Shown: in pieces, positions 5,230 to 20,323 of the stretch
How the letters are laid out: each line of letters begins with the position of its first letter
How positions within the stretch are numbered: position 1 is the first letter of the stretch
IMG/VR virus record: IMGVR_UViG_3300012349_000018
Span: 1-22,453 of that record
Reading direction: 5' to 3' (one strand)
Source of the DNA: a virus
Length of the DNA: 22,453 nucleotides
Notes under the pieces: model-generated
The model's input: the letters and a program-made list of their open reading frames with translations, nothing else
What the model was told of the DNA's origin: nothing
Databases searched by the model: none
Position numbers and translations under genes: made by a program

Positions 5230-5739
5230 CTACGGCTTCACTGCCACTGCGCGCACGTCCGCCGGGGACGGCTGCACATCCACCACCACATCCGCCCAGC
5301 CCGCCTCCGCCAGGACCCGCCCGAGCTCGGCCGGGCGGATGTTCGCGTAATGCTCCCCGGGCAGCAGACGGAACTCCCCGTCCGCCGCCGAATGCGGCGG
5401 CCGGCCCGGAGCCGCGGTGGTGACGATGAGCCGGCCGCCGGGCGCGCACGCCGCGTACGCGGTGCGGCAGATCGCCCGCCACGCCGCCGTGTGCTCGAAC
5501 GTCTCGGCGCAGATGACCACGTCCCACGCCTGGCCGCCGGGGTTCCATTCCGCGGCGTCCGCGATGATGTCCACGTCCGTGACCTGCCCGCCGGGGCGGA
5601 TGTCCAGGACCGTGTAGCGGGTGGCGGCGGGGAACAGGTGCCTGGGGGAGCCGTTGATGTCCCGGCCGCCGATGTCCAGCACCGACACCGGGTCCGTAGT
5701 GGCATGCTTCGCGATCCACTCCATGGCCTCGCTATGCAC
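5230..5739 (-). CDS. Class I SAM-dependent methyltransferase
   Basis: The protein has 169 residues from GTG 5739 (ATG at 5724 is the alternative). It has the Rossmann-fold order: motif I VSVLDIGGRDINGS (18-31), an acidic strand-end YTVLDI (42-47), DVDIIADAAEW (55-65), DVVICAETFEH (73-83) and PGGRLIVTT (100-108). The glycine-rich motif I binds S-adenosylmethionine, and the ETFEH segment matches the DxxEH of small methyltransferases acting on metabolites or sugars. There are no DNA-target motifs such as DPPY or NPPF, so a DNA modification role is unlikely. It lies directly downstream of the glycosyltransferase genes, and a role in modifying a glycan on the virion or host envelope is a reasonable inference. 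Substrate unknown. Confidence 0.85.
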   Translation of the reverse strand: MHSEAMEWIAKHATTDPVSVLDIGGRDINGSPRHLFPAATRYTVLDIRPGGQVTDVDIIADAAEWNPGGQAWDVVICAETFEHTAAWRAICRTAYAACAPGGRLIVTTAAPGRPPHSAADGEFRLLPGEHYANIRPAELGRVLAEAGWADVVVDVQPSPADVRAVAVKP

Positions 5740-5869
5740 CGGTGCCGCCCTTCCCGCCCCACCAGCAGCGGCAGGCCGGGCAGTAGCCGAGGTTTCCCCG
5801 GGGGACCAGCGCCGTCAGGCAATCCGGGCAGAATCCTTCCGCCAGCGCGGCGGCGAAGTGGCTACTCAC
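5732..5869 (-). CDS. 45-residue zinc-ribbon protein
   Basis: This short reading frame starts at GTG 5869, overlaps the stop of the glycosyltransferase as GTGAGTAG, and ends at TAG 5732, eight bases into the methyltransferase gene. It encodes VSSHFAAALAEGF, then CPDC (14-17) and CPAC (30-33) followed by RCWWGGKGG. Two CxxC knuckles 12 residues apart form a minimal zinc ribbon. The tight overlaps on both sides and high third-position GC argue that it is real. Function unknown; it could be a binding partner of the enzymes beside it. Confidence 0.65.
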   Translation of the reverse strand: MSSHFAAALAEGFCPDCLTALVPRGNLGYCPACRCWWGGKGGTGA

Positions 5870-6737
5870 CCGGCCCGCCTAGCCCGGCGTGCTCCGCCAG
5901 CCTGGCCTCGAACAGCGCCTTGTCCGCCTCGATGTGCTCGCGGCCCAGCGCGTACGTCTCGTCGTCTTCGGCCAGGCCCCACAGCGGGTGCAGGTGCTCC
6001 ACCTTGGCGTGCGGGGCCGCCACCCACGCGCCGCGCTGCCTCGCCGCCGTCACCAGCTCGTCATCGACGAACCAGTGGGCATAGCCTTCGTGCGCCACGG
6101 TCCCCGGGCCGTCCCAGGAGGCGCCCTGCTCGTCGATGTAGGCGCGGCGGACCATCGGGTGCGGCGAGTGCTCCCCGGCGGTGACCCGCGGGTTGTGCAG
6201 GTCGTTCGTGCCGACCACGTCGGCGCCGTCGCGGGCGGCGTGCTGCGCCTGGTCCAGCCACCCCGGGTGGAACTTCACGTCGTCGCCGGCGAGCAGCAGC
6301 CACGGCTCCGCGGTGCCCCGGTAGCCGATATTGGCCTTCTGCGCGAACGTCCCCGGCGGCGTATCGTCCCAGGTCAGGACTGTCGCCCCGGCGTCGCGCC
6401 ATGCCTGCGCCGTCGCGCTATCGCCGATGTCAGCGACCGCGTACACGCGGGCCAGGCCGGCCCCGGACGCCTTCAGCGACGCCATGAACGGCTCCGCGTT
6501 CCCCGGCCGGCGCAGCACCGGGACGATCACCGCCGTCTCCTCCGTCGCCGCAGGCACCGGCGGGACCAGCTGCGACAGCGCCACCTGCCCGAAGTAGTCG
6601 TCCTCGGCGAGCCACAGCGTCTTCTGGTGCGTCGTGCGCACCCCCGTGTGGACGTGGATGGGGATGCCCAGCGCCCCGGCGCGCAGGCACAGCGCCAGGT
6701 CCTCGGACAGCAGCTGACCGGTCGTCGTGTTCGGCAC
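5862..6737 (-). CDS. C-terminal part of a two-domain glycosyltransferase, after an in-frame amber
   Basis: The frame runs 291 residues from GTG 6737 (PNTTTGQLLSEDLALCLRAG). The first 50 residues are the end of a GT-A catalytic domain begun upstream: the SEDLAL motif with a likely catalytic acidic residue, and HVHTGVRTTHQKTLW. After a VPPVPAATEETA linker a second GT2-like domain starts (AVIVPVLRRPGNAEPFMASL), with WLLLAGDDVKFHPGW as its DxD-type region and HWFVDDELVTAA further on. The reading frame is the same as that of the gene at 6765-7316, with only the TAG at 6767-6765 between them, and no ribosome site precedes 6737. So this is either expressed by readthrough, translated weakly on its own, or is the inactive remainder of a broken gene. 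It overlaps the zinc-ribbon gene by eight bases. Confidence 0.75.
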   Translation of the reverse strand: MPNTTTGQLLSEDLALCLRAGALGIPIHVHTGVRTTHQKTLWLAEDDYFGQVALSQLVPPVPAATEETAVIVPVLRRPGNAEPFMASLKASGAGLARVYAVADIGDSATAQAWRDAGATVLTWDDTPPGTFAQKANIGYRGTAEPWLLLAGDDVKFHPGWLDQAQHAARDGADVVGTNDLHNPRVTAGEHSPHPMVRRAYIDEQGASWDGPGTVAHEGYAHWFVDDELVTAARQRGAWVAAPHAKVEHLHPLWGLAEDDETYALGREHIEADKALFEARLAEHAGLGGPGE

Positions 6738-6764
6738 CCGGTCATACCACGCCCGGCCGAACTT

Positions 6765-7316
6765 CTACTCCACCCGCTCGAACACCGACCGGTGGATCAG
6801 GACGCACGCCGAGCCGGTTCCGCCGACCCGGGTCAGGGCGTCCGGCGGGTACTTCCACCGCACTACGAAACCCATCTGCCCGTCGTCCAGGACCGCCCAG
6901 TCGAACACCGTCGGCGCGGCGCGGCACCGCCACCCGCCCATCCCGTCCGGGGACACCTCCTGCTGCGTGAACGCCAGCCCCCCGACCACCGGACGTTCCA
7001 CCGGGTCGGCGGCGGCCAGCAGCCGGTCCACGCTGTCCGCCGCGAACCCCATGTCGGTGTCGATCCAGAACAGCCAGTCCGCCTGCCGCTCCGCCAGGAA
7101 CAGCTTCACCGCGCTGTTCCGCGCGGCGGCGAGCCCGTCAGTGCCGCACTTGTACGCCACGTACCCGCCGCGCAGGATCCGCGCCTCATGCGCGAAATCC
7201 CACCCGATCAGCTCGATCACCGAATGGTGCCAGGAGTAGGCGACGTCCTTGCCGTTGTAGATGTAGCCGACGGCGACCGCGGCCGCCCGGTCGTCCGGCG
7301 CGGGGTCAGTGGTCAC
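6765..7316 (-). CDS. N-terminal part of a GT-A glycosyltransferase, stopped by in-frame TAG
   Basis: The protein has 183 residues, GTG at 7316. VGYIYNGKDVAYSW opens a GT-A fold, GTDGLAAARNSAV (58-70) is the nucleotide-sugar loop, and WLFWIDTDMGF (81-91) carries the DxD metal motif. GMGGWRCRAAPTVFDW and RVGGTGSACVLIHRSVFERV follow. The protein then ends ERVE-TAG, but the next in-frame codons read KFGRAWYDRVPNTTTGQ and continue for 297 more codons. Because the stop lies inside the catalytic domain, before the SEDLAL acidic motif, the 183-residue product should be inactive alone. An intact gene would give about 484 residues. It overlaps the upstream 61-residue gene by 11 bases. Actinophage genomes often carry such glycosyltransferases next to capsid genes; the acceptor is unknown. 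Confidence 0.8.
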   Translation of the reverse strand: MTTDPAPDDRAAAVAVGYIYNGKDVAYSWHHSVIELIGWDFAHEARILRGGYVAYKCGTDGLAAARNSAVKLFLAERQADWLFWIDTDMGFAADSVDRLLAAADPVERPVVGGLAFTQQEVSPDGMGGWRCRAAPTVFDWAVLDDGQMGFVVRWKYPPDALTRVGGTGSACVLIHRSVFERVE

Positions 7317-8451: not shown

Positions 8452-9927
8452 TTACGAGTTCGCCACGAGGAGGCGGAACCCGGCCGTGTTACTTGAATCG
8501 CTACCGATCCTCGCGTAAGCGAACCAGCCTCTCTGTCCGGTGGGCACGGCCGGCCCGGTGCCGGCCACGACCTGCTGGAACAGCTGGGGAACCAGCTCTA
8601 CCGACATGCCGCCATTTCTCGCCACGACGAAGTTGCTGAAGTCGCCGACGATGGCCTGGCCCTCGGCGGTGGTGGTCCAGGTGGTGGCGTCGGGCATGTA
8701 CGCCGACTCGTAGACGGGCCGGTTGAACAGCTGGTCCGCCCACCCCTCGGGCAGGTTGACCGTGTAGCCGTGGAACACGTTCGCGGCGCCGATCTGCCGG
8801 ATCGCGTTGTTCACGCCCACGGACATCAGCCAGGAGGCGTTCCGCCGGTACTTCTGCGGCAGCGCCTTCCACACCGCGTACGGGTCCGGGGAGGTGATGG
8901 AGCCGCCGACGGCGACCTTCACCCGGTCACCGGACACCGCCGAGATCGCGGTGAGGATCCCCTTCGGCTCGCCCGTCCCGGACCCGATGGTGAACTTGTT
9001 CACCAGCAGCTCGTCATACCCCTGCGCCAGCAGCGTGCCCATCTCCGACGCGAACCCCGGGTAGTCCATCCCGACCTCGATCGAGTAGGGGATGAACCCG
9101 CGGGCCATGTGGACCAGCACGGTGGGCTGCGCCAGGGTAGGCGAGTTGTCCGTCGCCGCCGCGGCCTCAGTCTGGAACGCCCACGTGACACCGGCGCTGC
9201 TGACGCCCTTCCACTGATTGGTATTAACGGTGACTTGCTTGGCGATCGACAGGAACGGGTTACCGCTTTCCTGCGCCGTCAAAATAATCGACGGATCAAT
9301 GAAAACGGGAATTCCGAACCCGCCCGCCGTGGTCGTCCAGTCGCCCAGCGCGCGGAATTCGTACCAGGCCTGGACGGCCCGGTTCTCCTCCGGGGTCAGG
9401 ACGGGGTGGACGTCGGTGACCATCTTCATCCACGCCGACCGGTAGTCCTCGTTCTCCGTCACCAGGATCCGGCGGGCGGTGATCGTGTCACGGCGGAGCA
9501 TCTTCTCCACCTGGGTCTTCTGCGCGTCGGACAGGTCGGCGGCGTCGCGGGAGTCCAGGATCCGCAGCGCCTTGTCCCGGGCCTCGGGGTTGGTGAGGCG
9601 GCGGGTGTCGCCGGCGGGGTCGTCGAGGCCGTACCGGATGTTCGCGTAGGCCTGCTGCACGACGGCGGGCCGCCGCCGGAACACATCGGCGATCTTGGTG
9701 TGCTTGTCGAGCCGGTCCAGGATCTCGGTGCGGAGCTGCATCCCGAGGTTGAACGCGGACTCCTCGTCGTCGGTCAGGTCGCGCAGCTCGCCCTCGTCGG
9801 TCTGGTGCAGCGCCTTCAGGTGCGCGTCGAGGACCTCCGCCATCTTGCGGAGCTCGTCGGGGGTGCGGCCGCGCAGGTCGTCCATGCTCTCAGGCATGAA
9901 CTCTTCGTGCTGTTCGGTGTCAGGCAT
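8452..9927 (-). CDS. Major capsid protein, HK97 fold
   Basis: The protein has 491 residues; ATG at 9927 follows AGGAGACAACCGT. The first 110-130 residues are charged and helical (MDDLRGRTPDELRKMAEVLD, ESAFNLGMQLRTEILDRLDK), typical of a fused scaffolding delta domain removed by the prohead protease. The remainder has HK97 features: GDWTTTAGGFGIPVFIDPSI, FLSIAKQVTVNTNQWKGV, WAFQTEAAAATDNSPTL, an IPYSIEVGMDYPGFASEM spine-helix region, and FTIGSGTGEPKGILTA, the signature GTGxxxPxG of this fold. The end has GDFSNFVVARNGGMSVELVP and GWFAYARIGSDSSNTAGFRL. It forms the icosahedral shell. The gene overlaps the protease stop by eight bases, the usual order protease then capsid. It is longer than the classic 385-residue HK97 protein mainly because of the N-terminus. 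Confidence 0.95.
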   Translation of the reverse strand: MPDTEQHEEFMPESMDDLRGRTPDELRKMAEVLDAHLKALHQTDEGELRDLTDDEESAFNLGMQLRTEILDRLDKHTKIADVFRRRPAVVQQAYANIRYGLDDPAGDTRRLTNPEARDKALRILDSRDAADLSDAQKTQVEKMLRRDTITARRILVTENEDYRSAWMKMVTDVHPVLTPEENRAVQAWYEFRALGDWTTTAGGFGIPVFIDPSIILTAQESGNPFLSIAKQVTVNTNQWKGVSSAGVTWAFQTEAAAATDNSPTLAQPTVLVHMARGFIPYSIEVGMDYPGFASEMGTLLAQGYDELLVNKFTIGSGTGEPKGILTAISAVSGDRVKVAVGGSITSPDPYAVWKALPQKYRRNASWLMSVGVNNAIRQIGAANVFHGYTVNLPEGWADQLFNRPVYESAYMPDATTWTTTAEGQAIVGDFSNFVVARNGGMSVELVPQLFQQVVAGTGPAVPTGQRGWFAYARIGSDSSNTAGFRLLVANS

Positions 9928-10936
9928 ACGGTTGTCTCCTCATGCGCCAGGCGCGGTCCCGCTGGGCCGCTCTGATGGTGGCTGGCGACGTCCCGCCGTT
10001 TCCTGGCTGCACGTCATCTTGCTTCTCGCCGCCGGGGGCGCTCCGCGCGCCGTCCCGCCCGGTGAAGTCCTCATCGAGATCGAGCCCGTCCAGCAGCGAC
10101 CTGACCGCCGCGGTCGTCGGCTCGTAGGCCGGGAACACCACCGGCCCCAGCTCGGGGCAGTTCAGCCGCAGCAGGGTCCGCAGGTCCGGCTTCCCGGACC
10201 GCTTCGTCCACCGCTGGTCATCATCGCCGGGCGGCGTGAACCGGAACGACATGCCGTCCACGGCCCGGTCCCGGACCGCGTCCCGCACCGGCTGGATCAG
10301 CCAGTTATCGGACAGCCGCGCGGAGATGAACAGGCCCCGCTGGTCCTCGTGCGCGTCGTCGATGCGGCCGAGCGGCATGGTCCCGATCAGCGGGTGCCGG
10401 CCGTGCTCGAACATCAGCACGGGGGTCCGCTTCGCCAGCGACTCGGTGAACGCGCCGGGCGCGATCTGCTCCTCGAAGTCGCCCTGGTAGTCGGCGATGG
10501 TGGCCCTGCGGTTGAAAACCGCCGCGTACCCCTCCAGCGTCAGGCCGTCCCCGGTGCTGTCGGCGCGGGTGACCTCGAACGGCACCGACCGGATCAGCAT
10601 GTCGTCGCCGCCGGGCCGCCGGGCGGGCCGCTCCTCGCCGCCGGGGTCGGCGCTGTTGCCCTCGCTGACACTGTGCCCGTGCTTGGCCATGGCCGCCTTT
10701 ATCCGCCCCTTGATCGCCTTGAGCTGCTCAGGGGTGTACTGGCCCGCGTTCTTCGCCTGGTTGATGTAGGACCACGCGGCCTTCACCTTGTCCGCCGTCA
10801 GCGGGTACCGCTTGACGCCGGGCTTCCCGGACTTGCTGGCCTGGTTGCCGTCCGCGTCCAGATAACCGGGATCGGCGTAGGAAACGTCACCGTAAGGCTT
10901 CTTCGCGGCGGCCCGGACACTGCCGATCTCGGCCAT
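9920..10936 (-). CDS. Prohead protease (HK97 S78 type) with N-terminal extension domain
   Basis: The protein has 338 residues from ATG 10936, preceded by GGAGG at seven bases; the open frame continues upstream to 11116 but that part is antisense to the HNH leader. Residues 10-90 form a basic domain (KKPYGDVSYADPGYLDADGN, VKAAWSYINQAKNAGQYTPE) that I recognise as a common front fusion in actinophage proteases. The protease domain spans about 115-240: LTLEGYAAVFN, then FEEQIAPGAFTESL, LMFEHGRHPLIGTM with candidate catalytic His178, and RDRAVDGMSFRF with candidate catalytic Ser230. It would cleave the capsid delta domain and itself during head maturation. A Pro/Gly-rich, charged C-terminus follows. 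It sits between portal and capsid genes as expected, but a plus-strand HNH gene separates it from the portal. Confidence 0.92.
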   Translation of the reverse strand: MAEIGSVRAAAKKPYGDVSYADPGYLDADGNQASKSGKPGVKRYPLTADKVKAAWSYINQAKNAGQYTPEQLKAIKGRIKAAMAKHGHSVSEGNSADPGGEERPARRPGGDDMLIRSVPFEVTRADSTGDGLTLEGYAAVFNRRATIADYQGDFEEQIAPGAFTESLAKRTPVLMFEHGRHPLIGTMPLGRIDDAHEDQRGLFISARLSDNWLIQPVRDAVRDRAVDGMSFRFTPPGDDDQRWTKRSGKPDLRTLLRLNCPELGPVVFPAYEPTTAAVRSLLDGLDLDEDFTGRDGARSAPGGEKQDDVQPGNGGTSPATIRAAQRDRAWRMRRQPYA

Positions 10937-11056
10937 AACGCGCCTCCGTATTTCAGGTCGGATTGCTGCTGACCTGGTAAAATACCGACATACAGCGGCC
11001 CCGGCGTGCAGCGAACACACCGGGGCCAGGCCATCCCCTAAGTGGAGGCGATGACC
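10937..11056 (+). promoter_or_regulatory. Divergent leader with hairpin before the plus-strand HNH gene
   Basis: This 120-base region separates the divergent protease and HNH genes. It is locally AT-richer around TGGTAAAATACCGACATA (10975-10992), where TAAAAT could be a plus-strand -10, though without a clear -35. A strong hairpin follows: GGCCCCGG (10997-11004) with CCGGGGCC (11020-11027), extended by GTG/CAC inside. GTGGAGG at 11042-11048 is the ribosome site for the HNH gene, and ACGGAGG reads the other way for the protease. Confidence 0.4.
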
Positions 11057-11824
11057 ATGGCCCAACCTACGCGCGGATGCTCTGCCGACGGATGCACGCG
11101 CAAGCACAACTCCCACGGCCTGTGCTCAATGCACGGCATCCGCCTCGAACGACACGGCGATGTCAGCAATCCCGGTGCCTTCACCTACAGCGAGACCGGC
11201 CTGTGCACCGCTGAAGGCTGCAGCAGAAAGCACGTGGCCAAAGGGTTCTGCAGCATGCACTACCAGCGAGCCCAGGCCGGGACACTTGAACTCCCCGGCC
11301 AGTTGACCTGCCAGCGATGCGGGGCCACGTTCCCGCGCCCCTACAAGAGCAAGCCAGACGCGGTGCGGTTCTGCTCGCACGAATGCCGCTACGCAGTCCA
11401 GCTCGAAGACCACAAGGCCAACCGGACTGCCCGCAGCGCCTACCTGGCCACCTGGCGGAAACGCAACCCCGAAAAACAGGCCGCGAACAACCTACGGCGC
11501 AAGGCAGCCCGGCAATCTGCGGACATCTGCCGGGTCACCGGTCGCGACCTCATCCGGCTGGTCCATCGCTACCGGGGACTATGCGCCTATTGCGGCACCC
11601 GGCCCTACCGGCATTTCGATCACGTCATCCCGCTATGCCGTGGCGGCAGGCACTCCATAGGCAACCTGCTGCCTGCGTGCGTGACGTGCAACCTTACTAA
11701 GGGCCCCCGGTTGCTGGCTGACTGGCGCCTGCGTCCGCCGCTGCCGCGCCGTTTCCAGCGGTCGCTCCGCCGTTCGGCGACTGCTGCAGCGCCGCCGAAC
11801 CTGGCTTTTGGAGCTGGACGCTGA
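11057..11824 (+). CDS. HNH endonuclease with paired zinc knuckles, inserted on opposite strand
   Basis: The protein has 255 residues; ATG 11057 is chosen because GGAGG ends eight bases before it. Two similar N-terminal knuckles, CSADGCTRKHNSHGLCSMH (8-26) and CTAEGCSRKHVAKGFCSMH (50-68), are probably DNA-binding zinc modules. A third ribbon has CQRC (85-88) and CSHEC (106-110), then a basic helix AYLATWRKRNPEKQAANN. The HNH core has CAYC (176-179), FDHVIPLCRGGRHSIGNL with D188-H189, H199 and N203, and CVTCN at 208-212. From residue 214 the gene reads antisense through the last 128 bases of the portal gene, giving a basic tail RRFQRSLRRSATAAAPPN. It is likely a free-standing homing-type nuclease inserted between portal and protease and not needed for virion assembly. 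Confidence 0.85.
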   Translation: MAQPTRGCSADGCTRKHNSHGLCSMHGIRLERHGDVSNPGAFTYSETGLCTAEGCSRKHVAKGFCSMHYQRAQAGTLELPGQLTCQRCGATFPRPYKSKPDAVRFCSHECRYAVQLEDHKANRTARSAYLATWRKRNPEKQAANNLRRKAARQSADICRVTGRDLIRLVHRYRGLCAYCGTRPYRHFDHVIPLCRGGRHSIGNLLPACVTCNLTKGPRLLADWRLRPPLPRRFQRSLRRSATAAAPPNLAFGAGR

Positions 11825-13148
11825 GAAGGCCCCCGTGCTTGAGCAGCGACACGTCCTGGCCCCGGACCGCCGCCACCGCGCTCTCAGCAGTGAAACCTTC
11901 TTTGACATAACCGCAGATCGTCACGGCCTTCACCGCCTCGATGTCGGCGGCGTCCTTGGCGTCCTCCCGCAGGATCGGCATGTCCGCCGTGTCGAACCAC
12001 AGCTCCGCGTCGGCCGGGACCGTCACCACCGCCGCCAGCGAGTTCGCCAGGTCCTGCAGCACCGGGTACACCCAGGTGTCCGCGAACATCCGCCGCGCCA
12101 TCCCGAAATTCCCCGCGTTCAACGATGATCCGGCCAGGCCCTCGCTGATCCCCAGCAGCGCCGCCGGCACCCGCGACAGCACCGACAGCCGCGTCTCGTT
12201 CGCGCCCTGCACCGCCTTCAGGTCCAGCTCAGCGAGATTCGAGCCAATTACTGTCGCGTCCGCTGCGCCGGTCAGGTAAAGCGTCCTGTAAGCGTTGGCG
12301 ACACCCGCGTGCTGCTCCTCCATGTCCGCCACCAGCTGCAGGAAATCGTTCCGGTCTATCGCCGGTATTCCCTTCACCACCAGGTTCGGGGTGGCCCCTT
12401 GCTCGAAGAACCTGATCTTGTGTTCGGATGCCAGCCGGTCGCCCTGCATCTCCCGGATCGCCGGGGTCAGCCACGACATGCCCAGGCCCGTCATCTCCGG
12501 ATCCGGGAGCGGCGCCCAGTGCGCCACGTCTTTCGGCAGCAGGAAGTGGGGCTGCCCGGTGCCGATGCCCCGGTTGGCGTAGACGTAGCCGAGCAGTTCC
12601 GCGTCCAGCTCGCCAGACGGCCACTCCGGCTCCAGCTCCGACCCGTAGATGATCGCGGTCCAGTCGGGGCGCAGCAGCCGCAGCCTGCCCGGCTGCCGCA
12701 GAGCGTACGCGTTGCCCGCCAGCCCGGCGTGCCACTCCATCCGCGATATCAGGTCGCCCGTCGTGGACGAGCCGCCCCACGGCCGCTCGAGCAGCGCCAG
12801 GTCAGGGTTCCCGAACGTGCGCCGGGGCGTCGCCCGGTGCCACGGCGGGTTCCGGAACGTGAACCTGGCCTGGGACAGCACCAGGGCGCGGACCATCTGC
12901 GCCGCGAACGCCGGCGGGCACGCCTGCAGCGCCACCCGGTACCCCGGCAGGCTATTCGCGATCTCCGCCGCCCGGTTCCCCGCCAGGCTGCCCGGCAGCC
13001 CCGACCCGAACGGGTAGCTCGTGTTGCCGTAGGTGAACGACCCGGCCGACGGGATCAGGTAGTCGCTGATCCACGTGTCGATGCTGTACCGCTGCTCGTC
13101 GCGGCCGCGGCGGCCGGCGCGGGCATTGACCCGGTCAAGGACGCCCAC
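11697..13148 (-). CDS. Portal protein
   Basis: The protein has 483 residues, GTG at 13148 after GGGAGG at six bases. It has the HK97-family portal layout: N-terminal MGVLDRVNARAGR, RVALQACPPAFAAQMVRALV, a clip-and-wing core with LISRMEWHAGLAGNAYALRQ and GRLRLLRPDWTAIIYG, DVAHWAPLPDPEMTGLGMSW, then the long HKIRFFEQGATPNLVVKG helix with DFLQLVADMEEQHAGVANAY, and LSRVPAALLGISEGLAGSSL. Twelve copies would form the vertex channel for DNA packaging. The C-terminal 50 residues are Ala/Gly/Gln-rich and probably disordered (GGATAGNGAAAADAGASQPA). That tail is antisense to the 3' end of the HNH gene. It follows the terminase after a small membrane protein gene, as in many actinophages. Confidence 0.93.
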   Translation of the reverse strand: MGVLDRVNARAGRRGRDEQRYSIDTWISDYLIPSAGSFTYGNTSYPFGSGLPGSLAGNRAAEIANSLPGYRVALQACPPAFAAQMVRALVLSQARFTFRNPPWHRATPRRTFGNPDLALLERPWGGSSTTGDLISRMEWHAGLAGNAYALRQPGRLRLLRPDWTAIIYGSELEPEWPSGELDAELLGYVYANRGIGTGQPHFLLPKDVAHWAPLPDPEMTGLGMSWLTPAIREMQGDRLASEHKIRFFEQGATPNLVVKGIPAIDRNDFLQLVADMEEQHAGVANAYRTLYLTGAADATVIGSNLAELDLKAVQGANETRLSVLSRVPAALLGISEGLAGSSLNAGNFGMARRMFADTWVYPVLQDLANSLAAVVTVPADAELWFDTADMPILREDAKDAADIEAVKAVTICGYVKEGFTAESAVAAVRGQDVSLLKHGGLLSVQLQKPGSAALQQSPNGGATAGNGAAAADAGASQPATGGP

Positions 13149-13169
13149 AGGTGGCCTCCCTCGACCGTT

Positions 13170-13391
13170 TTAGGGTGCTCGCTGCCCGGCCTTCGCCGTC
13201 TGCCAGCCTTCGATGACCGCGGAGCCGGCCCAGGCCGCCGCCAGCCATGCGATCGCGCATGTCTTGTACGTCGCCCAGCCGAGGGCGAACAGGACCGCGG
13301 CGATCACCGTCAGCAGCACGCGGCCGGGATGCGCCTGCCGGGCCCGCCGCTCGATGCGGTCCAGGGGCACGCGCTCGGTGACGGACGTCAA
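13170..13391 (-). CDS. Small membrane protein between terminase and portal
   Basis: The protein has 73 residues. The start is inferred as TTG 13391 because AGGAGG lies seven bases upstream; the in-frame codons further up belong to the terminase 3' end. A charged N-terminus (VTERVPLDRIERRARQAH) is followed by hydrophobic VLLTVIAAVLFALGWATY and CAIAWLAAAWAGSAVI, consistent with two transmembrane helices or a hairpin, and a basic tail. Similar small membrane proteins occur at this position in other actinophage genomes, but their role is not known to me. TTG starts are uncommon in this window. GTG at 13382 would be a shorter alternative without the good spacing. Confidence 0.6.
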   Translation of the reverse strand: MTSVTERVPLDRIERRARQAHPGRVLLTVIAAVLFALGWATYKTCAIAWLAAAWAGSAVIEGWQTAKAGQRAP

Positions 13392-17215: not shown

Positions 17216-17317
17216 TCAGCCGTACCAGAGCCGGTCGAACCCGGCGATAACGCCGTCGCGGATGTCTCGGGCGGTGCGTTCCAGGAACCGGCCGAGGCGC
17301 TTAAGGGTACGTGCCAT
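17216..17317 (-). CDS. 33-residue basic helical peptide
   Basis: ATG at 17317 is preceded by AGAGGACCGACC, which gives a usable ribosome site within a conserved 30-base leader. The peptide MARTLKRLGRFLERTARDIR then DGVIAGFDRLWYG is a single amphipathic, basic helix ending with an aromatic cluster. Stop at 17216 joins the next gene through TGACCATGG. It is short, so translation is inferred from signals rather than proven. Confidence 0.5.
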   Translation of the reverse strand: MARTLKRLGRFLERTARDIRDGVIAGFDRLWYG

Positions 17318-17405
17318 GGTCGGTCCTCTCCGCTTGTCTCCGTCTGAGGGCATGCGACCGCTGGTTCCGTTCAGTGTTGCACATGGTCACGGGTGTTTCC
17401 GCCAT
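17301..17405 (-). CDS. Possible 34-residue peptide overlapping the leader repeat
   Basis: ATG 17405 lies in GCTGACCATGGCG, the same junction as its neighbours, and the frame reads MAETPVTMCNTERNQRSHAL then RRRQAERTDHGTYP. The second half is simply the leader repeat ACGGAGACAAGCGGAGA translated, so selection on the peptide is doubtful there. It overlaps the next gene by 17 bases. It may be a leader peptide coupling the zinc protein gene upstream to the gene at 17317, or not a gene at all. Confidence 0.3.
   Translation of the reverse strand: MAETPVTMCNTERNQRSHALRRRQAERTDHGTYP
17327..17343 (-). repeat. Leader/operator repeat copy A
   Basis: On the minus strand this reads ACGGAGACAAGCGGAGA, followed by GGACCGACC and the ATG at 17317. 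Copy B at 17639-17655 matches it over this core and also in the flanking CATGCCC and AGGACYGACCATGG, so A and B are a duplicated leader cassette. Confidence 0.6.
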
Positions 17406-17407
17406 GG

Positions 17408-17629
17408 TCAGCCCAGGCGAACCGGCTGGCCGCACGCATGGCAGAGCGGGTGACTGGTGAAGCCCGCCGGGAGCGCCATGCTGCTGTACGTCATCGGGTT
17501 GTGCCGGTCGCAGGCGCGGACCGGCTTGCCGTGCCAGGCGCCGTACCAGACGGTGGATGCGGGGGACGCGCAGCCTTCGGTCTCGCACATCAGCCGGACG
17601 CCGCGCTCACTGAGGATCATGACGTCCAT
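17408..17629 (-). CDS. 73-residue zinc-binding protein
   Basis: ATG 17629 follows leader copy B and GGACTGACC; the frame also extends in phase to ATG 17665 through the leader itself (MPVNGDKRRGLT), which I treat as untranslated. The protein reads MDVMILSERGVRLMCETEGC, ASPASTVWYGAWHGKPVRAC, DRHNPMTYSSMALPAGFTSH and PLCHACGQPVRLG. Ligand pairs C15-x4-C20, C40-x2-H43 and C63-x2-C66 form one or two zinc sites. Such small zinc proteins are frequent in actinophage early regions. Function unknown. Confidence 0.65.
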   Translation of the reverse strand: MDVMILSERGVRLMCETEGCASPASTVWYGAWHGKPVRACDRHNPMTYSSMALPAGFTSHPLCHACGQPVRLG

Positions 17630-17638
17630 GGTCAGTCC

Positions 17639-17655
17639 TCTCCGCTTGTCTCCGT
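17639..17655 (-). repeat. Leader/operator repeat copy B
   Basis: The minus strand reads ACGGAGACAAGCGGAGA, identical to copy A and to copy C at 20275-20291. GATACC lies 12 bases upstream of it, compared with 11 bases in copy C, so a larger shared module including upstream bases is possible. Confidence 0.6.
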
Positions 17656-17691
17656 TTACGGGCATGAGGTATCAGCCACATAGTAAGACCT

Positions 17692-20253: not shown

Positions 20254-20274
20254 GTGCGCTGCCTTCAGGAGCCG

Positions 20275-20291
20275 TCTCCGCTTGTCTCCGT
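20275..20291 (-). repeat. Leader/operator repeat copy C, at the early promoter start site
   Basis: Minus strand ACGGAGACAAGCGGAGA, identical to copies A and B, lies right at the expected transcription start. On the plus strand it contains two GTCTCCG units ten bases apart. A related string GGAGACAGCAGGAG lies in the opposite orientation at 20332-20345. Confidence 0.6.
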
Positions 20292-20295
20292 TCAA

Positions 20296-20323
20296 AGGTT
20301 ACGGTATCGCACACCGATGTCAA
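20296..20323 (-). promoter_or_regulatory. Main early leftward promoter
   Basis: Minus strand TTGACA (20323-20318) and TAACCT (20301-20296) are spaced by 16 bases, a good sigma-70-like match with transcription starting near 20289. It would drive the minus-strand operon beginning at 20253. The repeat ACGGAGACAAGCGGAGA overlaps the start site and could be a repressor operator. Confidence 0.6.

Follow-up and report, generated by a model that had tools for sequence, protein, structure and literature searches.

Organization of the glycosyltransferase locus

The window analysed here is a 22,453-nt stretch of viral DNA (IMG/VR record IMGVR_UViG_3300012349_000018, positions 1 to 22,453), in which capsid and connector genes are followed by a glycosyltransferase gene and then by a methyltransferase gene (Table 1), with an integrase encoded in the same phage. 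A prophage region of Amycolatopsis pretoriensis has the same gene order, and this common arrangement supports an actinobacterial host.

The minus-strand frame from 7316 to 5862 comprises 485 codons, terminates natively at TAG 5864-5862 and contains one internal stop, the TAG at 6767-6765. The earlier note had read the open frames 7316-6765 and 6737-5862 as a single frame interrupted by this codon only, and had stated that no ribosome site precedes the second part; coordinates, frame and the missing site are all as it described. A plausible site of the GGGAAGG type lies upstream of the GTG start at 7316 (GAGCGGGAAGGGCGCGATCC-GTG), whereas none was found upstream of the internal GTG at 6737, which is located 27 bases past the premature stop and opens a 291-aa ORF containing the whole of domain 2. 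The interrupted frame is confirmed at the sequence level as real and not a product of chance: alignments with intact homologues run through the stop, from codon 4 to codon 483. The closest of these relatives share 80-88% amino-acid identity, and each half can be aligned with them over its entire length.

Table 1. Features of the glycosyltransferase locus, with positions in the window
Feature	Position	Strand	Evidence and remarks
Major capsid protein gene, upstream of the glycosyltransferase, intact	8452-9927	-	PF05065, E 7.4e-29
Two-domain GT-A (GT2-like) glycosyltransferase gene, one in-frame TAG inside	5862-7316	-	Homologues unbroken over full length
Segment upstream of the stop, covering the initial two thirds of GT-A domain 1 and including the IDTDMGF (DxD) motif	6768-7316	-	PHROG 34859 glycosyltransferase, E 1.9e-8; AlphaFold2 model of the intact homologue L040
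Premature TAG, codon 184	6765-6767	-	Sense codons (mostly Glu or Ala) opposite in all homologues; end of a domain 1 helix
Segment downstream of the stop, covering the rest of domain 1 (with the SED, HVHTGV and THQK motifs), the linker and the second, GT2-like domain	5865-6764	-	PF13641, E 3.8e-5, under the curated cut-off; PF00535 in 42/42 intact relatives
Methyltransferase gene, neighbour, ends in TAG; typical partner of actinophage glycosyltransferases	5230-5739	-	PF13489, E 4.5e-13

Several other features of the window were observed. A block of 3863 bp at 9502-13364, from the portal gene to the start of the capsid gene, is 100% identical in the contigs IMGVR_UViG_3300012209_000037 and 3300012351_000045; just below it divergence is about 10%, and above about 13390 the alignment to both contigs is lost. 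Recombination in the very recent past may account for the block, or the assembly may be chimeric. At 1557-2768, on the minus strand, a predicted protein carries recurring VISRGSLADAPVLTT-like units, and the underlying DNA contains a 68-nt repeat in five copies with 63-81% identity to the reference copy. A 41-nt repeat occurs at three places (17314-17354, 17626-17666 and 20262-20302), each at the predicted start of a small gene or a short way upstream of one, and is possibly a leader or translation-start element.

A two-domain GT-A glycosyltransferase family

A viral scan for the two-domain glycosyltransferase family returned at least 594 candidate stretches, and the homologue set drawn from two such scans comprises 117 loci, of which about 93 distinct sequences reach the stop site. 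DNA and protein searches of 50,697 phage records gave no match to the glycosyltransferase. Among genome contigs, the N-terminal part of the interrupted protein found no match, and alignment of the family recovered four loci, one of them on the A. pretoriensis contig whose gene order matches that of the window. In five of the related loci (L023, L031, L055, L058 and L089) a second, divergent domain-1-like glycosyltransferase gene directly adjoins the first.

Profile and motif evidence indicates that the gene product is a GT2-like GT-A glycosyltransferase. The PF00535 profile matches 42 of 42 intact homologues (E up to 0.01) and the nearest relative, L040, scores above the cut-off of this profile (39 bits against 23.3); the second half of the interrupted gene itself stays below the cut-off for PF13641 (24.3 bits against 27). 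The two aspartates of the DxD-type motif, D80 and D82, are invariant in the 42 homologues, and the interrupted gene carries them within IDTDMGF.

An AlphaFold2 model of L040 (mean pLDDT 89, pTM 0.58) is composed of two GT-A-like domains, at about residues 1-250 and 255-470. Homology and this model together support the earlier proposal of one two-domain GT-A protein cut by a single amber codon, with the stop inside the first catalytic domain: codon 184 corresponds to residue 178 of L040, a variable position that the model places in domain 1, near the end of the helix spanning residues 170-180. A sequence search against solved structures returned nothing useful. A Foldseek search retrieved two-domain glycosyltransferases such as K4 chondroitin polymerase, together with many phage glycosyltransferases. 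Similarly to E. coli K4 chondroitin polymerase (PDB 2z86, 2z87) and to the GT2/GT-A family at large (PF00535, PF13641), the phage proteins combine GT-A folds, a DxD motif and two catalytic-type domains per chain; however, identity to the polymerase is 10-12% and whole-chain superposition is poor (TM 0.26-0.34), and the match is one of fold and domain count only.

The neighbouring methyltransferase gene invites comparison with actinophage virion glycosyltransferases, such as those of mycobacteriophage cluster O. PMC11600133, citing Freeman et al. 2023, reports that actinophage glycosyltransferases beside methyltransferases modify capsid and tail proteins; PMC13313380, also citing Freeman et al. 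2023, words this as a possibility. In both settings the genomes are actinophage-like and the glycosyltransferase gene has a methyltransferase gene close by, but the protein studied here lacks any match in the phage records searched and its copy is interrupted. By analogy, we infer that the two-domain family may glycosylate virion proteins.

Origin of the amber codon

At the position aligned with codon 184, a sense codon is present in every one of about 93 distinct homologues from viruses. The residues found there are Glu (38), Ala (30), Asp (10), Gln (6), Gly (3), Lys (3), Arg (1), Thr (1) and Val (1), with GAG the commonest codon (35), followed by GCC (16), GCG (11), GAC (10) and others. L040 carries GAG, one base away from TAG, and the next two relatives, L041 and L042, carry GCC. 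The earlier note had offered a recent nonsense mutation as an option, with CAG to TAG as the example. The nonsense reading fits but the example does not, since close relatives have GAG or GCC and CAG occurs only in more distant ones.

The interrupted gene is conserved on both sides of the stop. In an alignment of 42 intact homologues it retains all 60 of the 60 invariant columns, before and after the TAG, and only 1 of 107 near-invariant columns is altered, similar to what is seen in intact relatives. For the segment past the stop, dN/dS is 0.31-0.39 in comparisons with the three nearest relatives and 0.19-0.39 among those relatives pairwise; because the values for the interrupted gene fall within the range of its intact relatives, any mutation would be recent. 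Unbroken homologues and a broken copy that is otherwise conserved are what a recent nonsense allele would leave. Conservation alone is, though, equally compatible with a recent stop, an error or readthrough. The type of stop is also the expected one: 121 single-base changes in this GC-rich gene could create a stop, and 83 of the 121 would yield TAG.

We therefore consider which of these origins fits best. A recent nonsense mutation at codon 184 of an accessory phage glycosyltransferase is the best explanation and a probable one. The main rival, possible but unlikely, is that a sequencing or consensus error in the metagenome contig created the TAG and that the real phage gene is intact. One base suffices to explain the codon, and the flanks on both sides appear fully functional. 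In addition, the source contig contains the sharply bounded block shared with two other contigs and could be an assembly chimera, and an exact DNA search that left the first base of the codon free found no second near-identical record covering the TAG site. Against an error, no break was seen in any of the other window genes for which four related loci allowed a comparison, stop-creating changes make up only 2.8% of the base changes available in the gene, and the shared block, with zero differences from the two other IMG/VR contigs, suggests that consensus errors are few, at least within it. The unbroken genes, the identical block and the other broken alleles described below favour a real mutation over a consensus error as the best explanation.

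A functional split of the gene, with a restart at GTG 6737 producing domain 2 as a separate protein, is improbable. The ORF beginning there holds all of domain 2, and domain-1-only homologues are known in related phages, but the internal GTG is without a ribosome site and the break falls inside domain 1. Those homologues that are shorter terminate around residue 240-276 and in no case at 184, and the arrangement that the earlier note had set against its own reading, two separate proteins with their boundary at this point, is thus not what the homologues show.

Programmed readthrough or amber suppression giving a full-length enzyme, the remaining option raised earlier, is very unlikely and fares worst: both halves are still conserved (as a recent mutation or an error also predicts) and the base after the TAG is A, but the stop is absent from all homologues, a search of the window and of 34 loci turned up no suppressor tRNA (weaker evidence, the window being a fragment, with host tRNAs outside this coverage), RNA structure 3' of the stop is ordinary (z -0.86), and TAG is the genuine terminator of the terminase (TerL), portal, methyltransferase and 3675-4130 genes and of the glycosyltransferase itself. 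Amber-recoded phages of the phAss-1 group carry TAG in 41 ORFs together with suppressor tRNA genes (PMC10607447); the present case resembles them in having an in-frame TAG inside a phage gene, but differs in its single TAG, in the suppressor tRNA search and in the use of TAG as a terminator. Most likely, then, the TAG marks an ordinary, sporadic null allele, or else a single-base sequence error, and not a special decoding signal. Among the explanations offered earlier for the TAG, mutation and base error fit, whereas recoding does not.

Probable null alleles and the biology of the family

We propose that the two-domain GT-A glycosyltransferase gene of a temperate soil actinophage recently gained a nonsense mutation at codon 184. 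Translation would end at residue 183, and the truncated product would lack the later conserved domain 1 residues (SED, HVHTGV and THQK) as well as all of domain 2. The allele is presumably null because its product loses these motifs and domain 2; loss of function is thus predicted from the motifs and the structural model. The intact enzyme would add sugars to virion proteins, or to host surface material, and the phage may need it little enough for null alleles to arise in the population.

At the level of sequence comparison, occasional knock-outs of the gene are shown by two other alleles that were broken independently, both of which have an intact sister of nearly identical sequence. In L069 the linker contains a TAG, and the corresponding codon of its 99.9% identical sister L070 is CAG. 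A 4-bp deletion disrupts L036 but not its near-identical sister L026. The breaks in L069 and L036 may themselves be errors. Counting the interrupted gene, about 3 of 113 full-length glycosyltransferase genes are broken, compared with 0 of 86 capsid genes, which is no significant excess (Fisher p 0.26). It is doubtful that populations of soil actinophages knock this gene out recurrently, with null alleles arising by independent mutations and being maintained because loss of the sugar modification is sometimes advantageous, for instance when host receptors change.

We note that L069 and L070 (L070 5001-6455) differ at 7 positions in 6.8 kb, 5 of which lie within the glycosyltransferase gene, the linker TAG of L069 included. 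A general mutational hot spot was considered and rejected, since most near-identical pairs, L069/L070 excepted, have no difference in the gene.

In sum, the single allele matters little: for a lone in-frame amber codon in a GC-rich phage gene, a nonsense mutation of the sporadic kind or an error in one base is a better explanation than recoding. Its analysis brought to light, as a by-product, a large and little-described two-domain glycosyltransferase family, found in viral and genome contigs and unmatched in the phage records searched. Occasional nulls that occur beside near-identical intact sisters would make the benefit of the sugar modification testable.
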